DNA of 22,979 nt from a virus: positions 1-22,979 of the IMG/VR virus record IMGVR_UViG_3300021226_000004. One strand, written 5' to 3'. The first letter of the stretch is position 1, and each line of letters opens with the position of its first letter. The notes under the pieces are model-generated. The model did not search any database and was not told where the DNA came from. It saw only the letters and a list, made by a program, of their open reading frames with translations. The position numbers and the translations under genes are program-made. This document shows positions 5,992-22,979 of this stretch, in pieces.

Positions 5992-6267
5992 TTAGTAGCT
6001 ACCACCATCAACTGAAGCTGCTTCTAAAGCGCCAGTAACTGTCAAAGTACCGCCAACAGTTTCGTTACCTGTGACAGCCAATACAGCAATCGTTGCAGTT
6101 CCTGTAATAGTTGGACTAGCAGAATCAGCTTTGCTATTAACTGCGACCTGAATAGCACTAAACTCAGTATCTATCTCTGAACCACGAACAAGTTTAGAAG
6201 GATTGCCTGTTGAAAGAGCATCCTTAGATGTAAAATTAGTTGCTTTTGTGTAATTAGAAATTTTTAT
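5992..6267 (-). CDS. Fibre N-terminal-type ORF lacking a canonical start (about 89-91 aa)
   Basis: Between the HNH gene and the GNAT-like gene one frame is open and clearly coding: KISNYTKATNFTSKDALSTG then KLVRGSEIDTEFSAIQ, a pattern common at the start of short-tailed phage fibre proteins (NYT-x-A-x-xF-x-x-KD-x-L, G-S/T-EID-x-EF). It continues with repetitive Thr/Val/Gly sequence and ends DGGSY, much like the DGGSF end of the 306-residue fibre protein. No ATG, GTG or TTG precedes the conserved block. The codon expected to be ATG is ATA (6267-6265), overlapping the HNH stop. An ATT at 6261 lies about 6 bases below a strong AAGGGGA. It may start at ATT, be poorly translated, or be a recent pseudogene. 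The stop at 5992-5994 lies 2 bases before the next start. Confidence 0.6.
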   Translation of the reverse strand: MKISNYTKATNFTSKDALSTGNPSKLVRGSEIDTEFSAIQVAVNSKADSASPTITGTATIAVLAVTGNETVGGTLTVTGALEAASVDGGSY

Positions 6268-6812
6268 TCCCCTTGTTTCAAATATGCTAACAAGATTTCC
6301 AAATCTTCTACAGACGCATAACCTTTAATTCGGTTTGCTTTCCATGAGATAATTTGTACATTATCTTTTGTATAGCCTTTGTTAGAATCAATCCGGTCTA
6401 GACTTGGACTTGTCTCTCTAAATCCACTTCCATTCCATTCCAGTGTAAACCCAAAAATAGGACACTTATTATCTGCTGGATACAGTTCAAATAAATCTTG
6501 TTTTGTAAGTGTGTGTTCTCTGTTTTTAGCTTTTGCTCTAGCACGAGAGGCATTTAAAAGACCTTGTAATCTAAACTCTAAATTTTTAAAATTCTTTTGT
6601 CGATATTCTTTGCTATATTTTTTTAAGTGTTCTTGTTTTTCTATTCGTCTTTTAGCTTGTCTTTTATTATCGCAACTTTTACAAACATATTGTAAACCAT
6701 CTTTTTTGTTTGCTTTATTTTTTGCATAAGCCAACAAAGGTAACAACTGTTTACAGGTTAAACACTCTTTACCAAACTGTTCTTCAACATTAGAGACAAG
6801 GGCTAAACTCAT
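6264..6812 (-). CDS. HNH-type endonuclease, free-standing (182 aa)
   Basis: The N-terminus has two CxxC pairs (C17/C20 and C44/C47) forming a zinc-finger-like module. A Lys/Arg-rich helical linker follows (about 50-95), typical of DNA binding. The nuclease core is at 135-163: SPSLDRIDSNKGYTKDN, then VQIISWKANRIK. This is the recurring signature of phage HNH endonucleases in which the first His is replaced within a DRID block and the later Asn residues and the N-x-x-K are kept. Such enzymes are usually homing-type mobile genes that cut a related genome lacking the insert. The ATG overlaps the stop of the tail gene as ATGA, so it is co-translated rather than split off. The gene is more AT-rich than its neighbours, consistent with later acquisition. 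Confidence 0.85.
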   Translation of the reverse strand: MSLALVSNVEEQFGKECLTCKQLLPLLAYAKNKANKKDGLQYVCKSCDNKRQAKRRIEKQEHLKKYSKEYRQKNFKNLEFRLQGLLNASRARAKAKNREHTLTKQDLFELYPADNKCPIFGFTLEWNGSGFRETSPSLDRIDSNKGYTKDNVQIISWKANRIKGYASVEDLEILLAYLKQGE

Positions 6813-15489: not shown

Positions 15490-15739
15490 CCTGAGCTTCT
15501 CCCGAAGAGTCTTGAAACGATGCGTAAGTCTGTTCGGACACTTTTTTAAGGCTTAATAGCCACTGGAGAATGTCCAGTTGTCCTCGTTTTAAATGTAAAT
15601 CTTTCTCATCTTGGATAGCTAGAACATGGTTGATGCCTTCAAACATGGTTTGTGCGTCTTCCATTAAATCCTGCCACCCTTGAGTAGCCATCATGGAGAA
15701 TCGTTCTTCATAATAGCTTTGGAGTTCTTGTTTTGTCAT
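15482..15739 (-). CDS. Small helical head-module protein, unknown (85 aa)
   Basis: Mostly helical: a Gln/Tyr/Glu-rich start (TKQELQSYYEERFSMMATQG), a Trp (WQDLMEDAQTMFEGIN), then KRGQLDILQWLLSLKKVSEQ. It resembles small phage proteins encoded between portal and scaffold that I have seen without named function. It is the first gene below the second sigma70 promoter and has AAAGGATAAAGA before the ATG. It overlaps the zinc-ribbon gene by 8 bases. Confidence 0.6.
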   Translation of the reverse strand: MTKQELQSYYEERFSMMATQGWQDLMEDAQTMFEGINHVLAIQDEKDLHLKRGQLDILQWLLSLKKVSEQTYASFQDSSGEAQDA

Positions 15740-15761
15740 TCTTTATCCTTTTGGAGAATGT

Positions 15762-15781
15762 ATGTAAGTACTCACTTACAT
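15762..15781 (-). promoter_or_regulatory. Operator-like palindrome just below the promoter
   Basis: ATGTAAGT (15762-15769), ACTC, then ACTTACAT (15774-15781): perfect 8-base arms. Given the -10 at 15792-15797, it covers about +4 to +23 of the transcript, where a bound repressor would block elongation or an RNA hairpin would form. The half site ACTTACAT occurs again at 22734-22741 in the right control region. Confidence 0.6.
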
Positions 15782-15791
15782 TTATAGCCGT

Positions 15792-15820
15792 ATTGTACCA
15801 CAACTTTCTAAAAAAGTCAA
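15792..15820 (-). promoter_or_regulatory. Sigma70 promoter for the head genes
   Basis: Minus strand: -35 TTGACT (15815-15820, 5/6), 17-bp spacer (15798-15814), -10 TACAAT (15792-15797, 5/6), with TGTGG directly before it giving an extended -10. It lies in an 88-base gap between the collagen-like fibre gene and the small protein at 15739. It should give the host RNA polymerase an internal entry for the scaffold and capsid genes. Confidence 0.75.
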
Positions 15821-20515: not shown

Positions 20516-21769
20516 TTAGTATCCCGAGATTACATCAAGTGCTGACCAATCATCATCAGCGTCATCAAACATTGGTGTAGTAATTGCTATCTGCTCGATA
20601 TAAGACAAAGCATCCACTGTGTCATCATGCACTCCAGCAGTGGGGAACATCAGCAACTCATCAACCAACACATCAAAGTCACCTTCAGCATTAAGGGTAA
20701 TCCTGCCATGCTCGAAAGGACCTTGCAAAGCCCAAACCACTCTATCTTGTTTCTTACGATTACCATGAGTCAAGTCGTGGATATGAGCGTAACAGTTATG
20801 CCTACGCATCGCTTCAGACAAAGGACCCATCACCGCTTGTTTAGCGATTCCTCGCTCAATTCCAACTGCTAGTGGTCGATAGTGCTCAATATTCTTAAGA
20901 ATCCTCAGAGCAGTCTCTTCGGTAGTCCAACGACCTAATTCAATCTTATCGACAAACCAAGCACCATCATCAGTGACTTTAACACAGGCAATAGCGGATT
21001 TGTCTAAACGCTTATTACTATTCTTCTTACCAATCTCTTCAAAGCCTGATAAGTCAACTGCCATGTACCAACTGCCATGGTCTGGTTCTTCACCAAACTT
21101 AATCCACTCTTCTTTAAACAAACCTGAACCAGCGTTGTTAAAGGAAGACATATATTCCTGATTAAAAGCAAAGGAGCTTAGTGTCCTCTTAGCAGCTTCA
21201 ATCTCTTTAGGGTCAATCGTTTCATTATCTGCTGTGGTAAAGTGCCAAGACTTCCAATCCTCATCAGTTCCGTCTTGACCTAGCTTAAACCACTCATAGA
21301 AGTGATTACGACCTGAAGGAGTAGAAATAAACATTGCTCTACCTTTTTTATCTGACAACGCAGCACGAAGTACTCGTTCCCAAATCTCAGGTTTAATAAA
21401 AGCCACCTCGTCCATTACCAGATATGTCAAAGACACACCACGCAAAGAATCTTGGTTATCAGCACCTCTGACTAATATCTTACGACCATTAATCAGAGTA
21501 ATTTCTAAGTTGTTAATGTGAGCAGACTTAATAATCGGTCTACCTAAATCCATTAACAAATCCCACATAATGGTTCTAGCTTGTCCCAATGTTGGTGCAA
21601 CATACATTACACTAGAACCTTCAGGACAATTAATACCTTCAATCAACAAAGTGACTGCAGATAATCTGGATTTACCACAACGACGACCAGCAGCAATGAC
21701 TTTAAACCTTGTAGGGTCTTTAAATACTTCTTTTTGCCAATTCAATAGGCTAAAGTTCAGTTCAGCCAT
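20516..21769 (-). CDS. terL: Large terminase subunit (417 aa)
   Basis: The DNA-packaging motor. ATPase: Walker A AGRRCGKS (27-34), Walker B YLVMDE (116-121) with the catalytic Glu, and coupling motif STP (149-151). Nuclease domain: WYMAVDLSG with Asp239, GIERG around 303, and HDDTVDAL (381-388) as the C-terminal acidic metal ligands. Its length is on the short side of normal and it appears complete and intact. The ATG overlaps the preceding small terminase stop by one base (TAATG). Confidence 0.95.
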   Translation of the reverse strand: MAELNFSLLNWQKEVFKDPTRFKVIAAGRRCGKSRLSAVTLLIEGINCPEGSSVMYVAPTLGQARTIMWDLLMDLGRPIIKSAHINNLEITLINGRKILVRGADNQDSLRGVSLTYLVMDEVAFIKPEIWERVLRAALSDKKGRAMFISTPSGRNHFYEWFKLGQDGTDEDWKSWHFTTADNETIDPKEIEAAKRTLSSFAFNQEYMSSFNNAGSGLFKEEWIKFGEEPDHGSWYMAVDLSGFEEIGKKNSNKRLDKSAIACVKVTDDGAWFVDKIELGRWTTEETALRILKNIEHYRPLAVGIERGIAKQAVMGPLSEAMRRHNCYAHIHDLTHGNRKKQDRVVWALQGPFEHGRITLNAEGDFDVLVDELLMFPTAGVHDDTVDALSYIEQIAITTPMFDDADDDWSALDVISGY

Positions 21770-22221
21770 TATTCAATATTCACATCAGTAATATCGTTGT
21801 CAATGACCTCTGCAGCTTCTACAGTGGGACTATTGATACCAGTAATGTTAATACTAATCTGAGGAACTCCACCACCAGTCTTGGCTTCAAAGCTAGACAA
21901 AGGTAATAACCTCTCACCGCAGAACTTGAGCATCGCTCCTTGAGCAGGGTGTCCATCTTCTAAGGCAGTCTGAATAATCTTAGTGATTACGCTATCACCT
22001 GCAGTGGCTAGTAGTCTAGCTTTAAACTCTGCAATTCTAGCGCCATCGCCACTGCCGGGAGGTCTCCCAATCAATCCGGGCTTCTTCTTCTTTTCAATAT
22101 CCGACTTCTTTGGACGACCTAACTTTGGTTTACCATTAACCACTTCACGTCGTTTAATCTTTGGACGTTGCTTTTTTTCAGCAACGACTACCACTTCGTT
22201 AGAAGACACATCATCATCCAC
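21769..22221 (-). CDS. Small terminase-like DNA-binding protein (150 aa), GTG start
   Basis: The N-terminal part is highly basic, with two AT-hook-like GRP cores (KLGRPKKSD and GLIGRPPGSG, about 33-57). A helical section (AEFKARLLATAGDSVITKII, then MLKFCGERLLPLSS) and an acidic beta-like tail follow. Location immediately before large terminase, and the ...LERALP-like helix end, suit a small terminase that recognises the packaging site. The start is GTG at 22221, with AAAGGA about 8 bases upstream; the overlapping ATGATGATG is in another frame. The alternative is an unrelated DNA-binding regulator. Confidence 0.65.
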   Translation of the reverse strand: MDDDVSSNEVVVVAEKKQRPKIKRREVVNGKPKLGRPKKSDIEKKKKPGLIGRPPGSGDGARIAEFKARLLATAGDSVITKIIQTALEDGHPAQGAMLKFCGERLLPLSSFEAKTGGGVPQISINITGINSPTVEAAEVIDNDITDVNIE

Positions 22222-22442
22222 AGTCTTTTATCCTTTTAGGAAGACAAACATTAAATTTTTTCAAAGCCCTACTAATACTATAGAGTGCTGTCGGGTTCAC
22301 AGGGACTGAATTGCGCTATTAGCTAAGAGGGGAACTAACTATCGTTTATCGTTCCCCATGCTACAGTATTCTATAACTTGTCGTCCCGAAGGGGACTGTC
22401 CCGATTCCTTTATAGTGTGCTGTCGTTTGAACTTGTAAGGCG
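22222..22442 (-). promoter_or_regulatory. Structured leader of the packaging operon
   Basis: About 215 nt of untranslated RNA between the promoter and the GTG. It holds a 7-bp stem (GGGGAAC 22329-22335 with GTTCCCC 22351-22357, 15-base loop), a 5-bp hairpin (GTCCC 22383-22387, GGGAC 22392-22396, CUUC loop on the RNA) and two near-identical 15-mers, TATAGAGTGCTGTCG (22279-22293) and TATAGTGTGCTGTCG (22411-22425). No gene longer than a few codons is present. A regulatory leader is the simplest reading. Confidence 0.5.
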
Positions 22443-22471
22443 ATTTTAGCATACTTTCGTGATTTTGTCAA
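22443..22471 (-). promoter_or_regulatory. Strong sigma70 promoter for the late operon
   Basis: Minus strand: -35 TTGACA (22466-22471, 6/6), 17-bp spacer (22449-22465), -10 TAAAAT (22443-22448, 5/6), with TATGC before the -10 giving an extended element. It is placed before terminase, the first gene of the block, and is the best promoter in the window, so host RNA polymerase can start the late genes here. Confidence 0.85.
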
Positions 22472-22749
22472 GCATTATTTTTATATCGTTGTTTACAGTG
22501 TGTCTAAGAGGGTCTACGACAGTGCAGAACAGCGGGGCTATGACAGCTATACAGTGCTCCGCAGACCTGCTACGCAGTGAGCAGTTTCCACTGGTTAAGA
22601 ACTATTCTTCTTTTCTCTAATAATATCATAGACTTAGAGAGATGTCTTCATTATTCTTTTTTGTATACTTTAGAGGCTCCGCCATTATAAATAACATTAG
22701 TCTACCCCATCCCCCCTATGTTAGTTAGCACTTACTTACATCAATGATG
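22472..22749. other. Non-coding AT-rich stretch with one GC-rich structured island
   Basis: No supported gene. It contains a minus-strand 23-codon reading frame (22626-22697) with a G-rich upstream stretch; I do not call it. The island at 22511-22584 has an 8-bp imperfect stem (GGTCTACG 22511-22518 with CGCAGACC 22560-22567, one G-U in RNA) and a second 5-bp hairpin (22567-22584). Confidence 0.5.
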
Positions 22750-22806
22750 ACTATATTGTCACGTTAGAGGGTAGTTTCTTTGAAGTAGCGTTGTTTCTAT
22801 ACCACA
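22750..22806. repeat. 57-bp direct repeat, copy 1
   Basis: Begins ACTATATTGTCACGTTAGAG and ends in CTATACCACA. Differs from the second copy at two positions only (near 22786-22788). Contains dyad site 1 at its right end. Confidence 0.9.
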
Positions 22807-22961
22807 GTGTTGTATTGACACAACAGTAACTATATTGTCACGTTAGAGGGTAGTTTCTTTGAAGTTGTGTTGTTTCTATACCACACCGAGTGTGTGTTGC
22901 TATGGTGCAACATATTAGACCTACTTAGGGGAACATAGACCAGTGTTGTATTTATACCACA
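22789..22961. promoter_or_regulatory. Array of five dyad sites, TGTTGY-N6-RCMACA
   Basis: Sites at 22789-22806 (CGTTGT..ACCACA), 22808-22825 (TGTTGT..ACAACA, perfect), 22868-22885 (TGTTGT..ACCACA), 22895-22912 (TGTTGC..GCAACA, perfect) and 22944-22961 (TGTTGT..ACCACA). All have 6-base arms and a 6-base spacer. On the minus strand three read TGTGGTATA, which also looks like an extended -10 promoter element. Likely regulator binding sites or clustered promoters. Confidence 0.6.
22829..22885. repeat. 57-bp direct repeat, copy 2
   Basis: Matches copy 1 at 55 of 57 positions with 79-bp spacing between starts. Contains dyad site 3 at its right end. Confidence 0.9.
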
Positions 22962-22979
22962 ATAGGGTTTATCCTTATA

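Follow-up and report, generated by a model that had tools for sequence, protein, structure and literature searches.

Near one end of a 22,979-base viral fragment, which we analysed at its full length and call the window, five dyads of fixed geometry (family M1) are conserved among syntenic relatives, and they lie in a slot that these relatives share and in which sites resembling those of known regulators are enriched. From these features we infer the binder, the occupancy of the slot, its function as an origin and the direction of any effect. The reading that we favour, and that we regard as about evenly balanced, is that the dyads would be sites of a dimeric and most likely host-encoded protein, within a swappable array of regulator sites at a divergent control region that is also the probable replication origin.

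Five dyads in the window

The original prediction described five dyads of the form TGTTGY-N6-RCMACA at 22789-22961, two of them perfect palindromes, in non-coding DNA, and this description was borne out. Four sites match exactly and the fifth (22789) has one mismatch, which is also the outcome with the wider pattern that we used, TGTKGY-N6-RCMACA; the arms are perfect at 22808-22825 and 22895-22912; and 22222-22979 is free of genes. The sites and the direct repeats found by repeat comparison are listed here.

22944-22961, minus strand: dyad A, exact motif match; plus strand TGTTGTATTTATACCACA, minus strand TGTGGTATAAATACAACA
22895-22912, minus strand: dyad B, perfect arms; plus strand TGTTGCTATGGTGCAACA, minus strand TGTTGCACCATAGCAACA
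22868-22885, minus strand: dyad C, the most frequent form among relatives; plus strand TGTTGTTTCTATACCACA, minus strand TGTGGTATAGAAACAACA
22829-22885, no strand assigned: 57-bp direct repeat, copy 1, which holds dyad C
22808-22825, minus strand: dyad D, perfect arms, first of the tandem pair D-E; plus strand TGTTGTATTGACACAACA, minus strand TGTTGTGTCAATACAACA
22789-22806, minus strand: dyad E, one mismatch, second of the tandem pair; plus strand CGTTGTTTCTATACCACA, minus strand TGTGGTATAGAAACAACG
22750-22806, no strand assigned: 57-bp direct repeat, copy 2, which holds dyad E

Elsewhere in the 22,979-base record we found no exact match to the motif and none to a reversed control pattern. The D-E tandem pair has a spacing of 19 bp that is conserved and recurrent, and the position of dyad A is matched in a relative (L017) by TGTGGTACAAATACAACA at -1179. 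Because dyads C and E lie inside the two repeat copies, which are 96% alike, the sites are not independent and four or fewer events built the array. Dyad B aligns with another conserved box of the relatives, GGTGCATCATCGC..ACAC, from which it seems to descend, and it may be a chance member that is not homologous to the other four. The record stops 18 bp past dyad A, so the array may extend further. At its other end, roughly the first 192 bases end in Illumina adapter sequence (ACACTCTTTCCCTACACGACGCTCTTCCGATCT), and this record end is an artefact.

All late genes of the window are on the minus strand, namely a terminase small subunit (terS) candidate, the large subunit TerL (phrog_2), the portal and the major head protein.

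21769-22221, minus strand: terS candidate, 150 aa, assigned by its position as first late gene
20516-21769, minus strand: TerL, phrog_2, E 5e-45; bait for fetching relatives

The terS candidate has no PHROG match; it contains two AT-hook-like motifs, LGRPKK and IGRPPG. A Cys-rich HNH-like gene, probably a homing endonuclease, lies among the structural genes (6264-6812, minus strand). With TerL as the query we fetched 80 relatives, and the control region was tracked through about 110; ten longer genomes measure 34-39 kb. One relative (G005; L087/L088) has terL-coding sequence at both contig ends, with 83.4% and 83.9% identity to the query, and is probably a chimeric or mis-circularised assembly. 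When TerL was used to look for the host among 84,980 species genomes of bacteria and archaea, none of them yielded a relative. In the ten longer genomes the early genes run leftwards, divergent from the control region, and they encode a PolA-type polymerase, a primase-helicase and exonucleases, together with what looks to us like a B12-type ribonucleotide reductase. Among the early genes examined we recognised no integrase, no repressor and no single-subunit RNA polymerase. The GC skew flips sign at the control region in the genomes compared, which fits an origin, though it is confounded with gene direction.

Enrichment of the dyads and the slot beside the G-box

The spacer of the dyads had been predicted to be constant, and a spacer of 6 is indeed exclusive, with 41 sites observed against 0.1 expected and 0-1 at other spacers. 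In the control regions of 62 relatives (75 kb) we counted 45 M1 sites against 0.12 expected from shuffles, compared with 5 in the remainder of ten long genomes (358 kb), that is, 0.60/kb versus 0.014/kb; since relatives share ancestry, counts across them are not independent. M1 is therefore concentrated in one intergenic region and rare elsewhere, rather than equally frequent inside genes, and in relatives it keeps its place between the early genes, which run divergently, and the terminase-portal block of late genes. An unbiased palindrome search of 48 control regions ranked TGTTGT-N6-ACAACA first (22 of the 48), and among 38 distinct sites positions 8 (T) and 11 (A), which the search pattern left unfixed, are conserved and symmetric. 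The slot has no general surplus of 7-bp palindromes (20 versus 24 expected), so the excess sits in specific site families. We also scanned 2.9 million viral contigs for the tandem pair and for a single site beside the G-box. The D-E pair pattern occurred in 25 viral stretches, and all those checked encode proteins of the same phage family; the loci newly fetched by these scans likewise carry family proteins and have the site between the early and late blocks. Fixed geometry, non-coding location, conservation and rarity in genes are what had been foreseen for the sites of a dimeric regulator, and they support, at the level of sequence, the assignment of the dyads to a dimeric DNA-binding protein.

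Three features adjoin the dyads on the late side.

22720-22739, minus strand: M2, second dyad family, GTAAGTAAGTGCTAACTAAC; of TetR-family-operator type, adjoins the G-box
22705-22716, minus strand: G-box GGGGGGATGGGG, an anchor present in 115 loci
22600-22704, minus strand: AT-rich stretch downstream of the G-box, conserved by sequence comparison; candidate unwinding region

Among relatives the G-box reads ACATAGGGGGGAGGGG (core GGGGGGAGGGG) and precedes AT-rich DNA. On its upstream side, 100-300 bp form a hypervariable slot in which the site family differs from relative to relative. The families are M1, M2 (GTAAGTRAGYRCTNACTNAC), M3 (GTTAGT-N4-ACTAAC), NtrC, Fur, DnaA and LexA-like (CTGT-N8-ACAG), the Fur, DnaA and LexA-like boxes being assigned by consensus match, and at least one family is present in 67 of 69 distinct G-box loci, a frequency inflated by those loci that had been found through a site pattern. 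The prediction of one regulator thus has to be widened, since the same slot carries in relatives at least six other site families, several of them matching host regulators. Counts in control regions and in shuffled sequence were 38 and 0 for M2, 29 and 0 for M3, 52 and 0.75 for NtrC, 12 and 0.25 for Fur, and 15 and 1.0 for LexA-like sites; the enrichment over shuffles is large for all families but DnaA, which is concentrated in few loci. The concentration of NtrC, Fur, M2 and M3 in the control region is similar to or stronger than that of M1. Sites for CRP, PhoB and ArgR, scanned as negative controls, were absent from the control regions scanned, and the window's own control region has no NtrC or Fur box and no exact DnaA box. 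The slots of four relatives (L076, L063, L066, L082) hold other, unassigned tandem units, TGTCTGTGTTG and TATGCGTCAATGCG.

Many relatives contain AGCACTATATTGGTGCA, and E. coli K-12 has the identical sequence upstream of glnA, where it is an established NtrC site. A scan of all viral contigs with GCACTATAWTGGTGCA added 75 loci to the set, and at 49 of these the phage family's core proteins are encoded. Four copies of the NtrC box stand in tandem in one locus (L414), and in two others (L397/L407) the order NtrC-Fur-NtrC-DnaA fits inside about 90 bp. No sigma-54 promoter was found beside the NtrC boxes, and 60 Burkholderiales genomes contained no exact copy of the NtrC 16-mer. The M2 20-mer occurs in 57 bacterial stretches, about 34 of which have a TetR-family gene start nearby, and proteins sampled next to these occurrences match TetR_N. 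M2 therefore appears to be an operator of TetR-family type, the same palindrome standing beside TetR genes in bacteria. DnaA boxes in distant members number 68 versus 4.4 expected, and their commonest spacing is 11 bp on one strand (11 pairs); arrays are present in L006, L054, L368/L408, L405, L437 and L438, and in L405 and L438 the boxes directly precede the G-box. Several of the site families in the slots of relatives match known regulator sites, and host proteins would presumably be their occupants.

Promoters, candidate binders and competing readings

The late side of the control region and the second late unit have the following elements.

22443-22471, minus strand: late promoter TTGACA-N17-TAAAAT, the top sigma-70 match in almost all relatives compared
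22219-22442, minus strand: late transcript leader, about 200 nt, with many invariant blocks
22223-22245, minus strand: ribosome-site hairpin of terS, covarying, with two-sided changes of the outer pairs among relatives
15792-15820, minus strand: internal late promoter TTGACT-N17-TACAAT with extended -10 TGTGG, from the sigma-70 scan and relatives
15760-15779, minus strand: M2 palindrome GTAAGTGAGTACTTACATAC, shortly past the internal late promoter

The original prediction placed the dyads at the head of the late block. That placement was not supported: they sit in the divergent early/late control region, about 320-490 bp upstream of the late promoter, with 318 bp between this promoter and the dyad closest to it. 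The invariant blocks of the leader are CTATAA..TTATAG, GATAGCG and CTATAGTA, and neither the late leader nor the control region of the window has a match in Rfam. A hairpin round the ribosome site opens both late units (22223-22245 and 15737-15760, minus strand), with the form stem-TCC-loop-GGA(T/C)AAA-stem', and is a possible translational control element. M1 and M2 take each other's place at two points, one next to the G-box and the other shortly past the internal late promoter; at the second, a TGTGGT-N6-ACAACA dyad (M1) replaces M2 in six relatives (L005, L006, L007, L044, L046 and L050). In L023 and L072 the M2 palindrome at this promoter is followed by an unrelated reading frame instead of the usual gene, which looks as if it had been inserted at the operator.

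We looked for the binder on both the host and the phage side. A perfect-arm search of 250 Burkholderiales genomes found M1 only slightly more often than the reversed control pattern, and the M1-like sites there have no regulator in common as a neighbour. A 49-50 aa protein that is little beyond a sigma-70 region 4 helix-turn-helix is encoded by a minority of M1 genomes; its carriers are L085-L104 (G003, G010), L023, L028, L045, L047 and L048. Winged-helix-like proteins, a reading of our own for proteins that have no Pfam match, are patchy and occur only where M1 is absent. Since both kinds of gene are patchy, a shared phage regulator of the M1 genomes was dropped as a candidate, as was a lysogeny repressor, given the early gene content described above. 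A literature search for the dyad sequence returned no relevant match.

If the binder were instead phage-encoded, the dyads would be operators of an early/late switch, and the other families further operators or coincidental captures. We consider this the chief competing reading, possible but doubtful. It would account for the restriction of the tandem pair and the single sites to one phage family, always between the early and late blocks, and for the M1 or M2 palindrome just downstream of the internal late promoter, and the region-4-like protein in some M1 genomes and the winged-helix-like proteins in M1-lacking clades would offer it candidates. However, no DNA-binding gene is common to the M1 genomes, the region-4-like protein also occurs where no M1 slot was detected (L047, L048), no helix-turn-helix was found among the early proteins of G018, which has M1, and it is left unexplained why the slot also carries NtrC, Fur, DnaA and LexA-like sites. 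The NtrC, Fur and LexA-like boxes, which belong to transcription factors and not to initiators, also weigh against the idea that the dyads are initiator sites, phage or host, of a pure replication origin unconnected to regulation or host state. The location between divergent blocks, the skew switch, the DnaA arrays at the same position in relatives, the G-box with its AT-rich core and the 57-bp repeat all speak for an origin, but the same dyad stands in for M2 at a promoter well away from the candidate origin, and we hold an origin of this pure kind to be improbable.

The prediction had further read three dyads as minus-strand extended -10 promoters, with the same bases doubling as operator. 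The minus-strand form TGTGGTATA(A/G)A fits TGn-TATAAT in part, lacking the final T of the -10, and D and E jointly give TTGTGT-N17-TATAGA. The sigma-70 scan nonetheless made no call at the dyad sites, no -35 is conserved, the dyad persists in distant relatives as TGTTGTATA with the extended -10 lost, and the real promoters lie elsewhere and are conserved; on these grounds we ruled the overlapping promoter and operator out as very improbable. A packaging (cos/pac) site for the small terminase seems hardly credible: the region is upstream of terS and three contigs break at the G-box, but contig ends are scattered across about 1 kb, which led us to reject it, site families swap among relatives that have similar terminases, and sites are present at the internal promoter too.

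Possible host-state gating and known phage systems

We return to the favoured reading, to which we give about even weight, of a host protein binding within a swappable array just upstream of the G-box and AT-rich stretch. The control region of this freshwater phage family would probably also be its replication origin. Host proteins would occupy the slot, a putative M1 binder in the window and DnaA, NtrC, Fur, LexA-like and TetR-family-type proteins in relatives, and this occupancy would gate origin firing, early and late transcription, or both, by host state. Because the slots of relatives hold sites of well-known bacterial regulators, the virus may read the physiological state of its host. 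Tentatively, and with somewhat less than even confidence, we propose that a family without lysogeny genes in the genomes examined senses its host's physiology through a swappable array of host operators next to a G-box origin core, and in this way gates either replication or early transcription, with M1 as the operator of another, unnamed host regulator. The inputs sensed would be nitrogen, iron, DNA damage, replication initiation and TetR-type efflux or stress.

The usual picture of apparently lytic phages is one of a fixed programme. If the proposal is true, such phages adjust their replication to the state of the host by cis elements alone, different lineages having picked different sensors, and whether the environment gates lytic growth in uncultured freshwater phages becomes a directly testable question. 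The slot would also serve as a comparative system for finding new regulators, as whatever fills it is probably a regulator site.

A swappable, mixed array of host-regulator sites was not found in the open-licence papers searched, and several known systems share parts of it. As in an oriC-type DnaA origin, the 11-bp-phased DnaA boxes of distant members adjoin a GC-rich block and AT-rich DNA, whereas the window's region lacks a DnaA box and the dyads fill that slot. Mycobacteriophage stoperators, which are asymmetric, genome-wide and bound by a phage repressor (PMC9283540, PMC6550527), may be likened to the dyads as repeated short phage sites for a regulator, but the window's sites are symmetric and clustered, and no repressor is among the early genes examined. 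GIL01 is a temperate phage controlled by one regulator, LexA, and uses this host stress regulator through boxes in a phage promoter (PMC4551915); in the present family the early genes examined include neither an integrase nor a repressor, and LexA-like sites are one of several families. GIL01 and the CtrA-site arrays of Alphaproteobacteria phages ('lytic deferment') come closest, each with one host regulator; for CtrA, binding was shown experimentally (PMC9437464). In the CtrA phages too a large intergenic region carries dense, position-specific and repeatedly evolved host-regulator sites, whereas in the present family several site families, known from sequence alone, swap in one slot.
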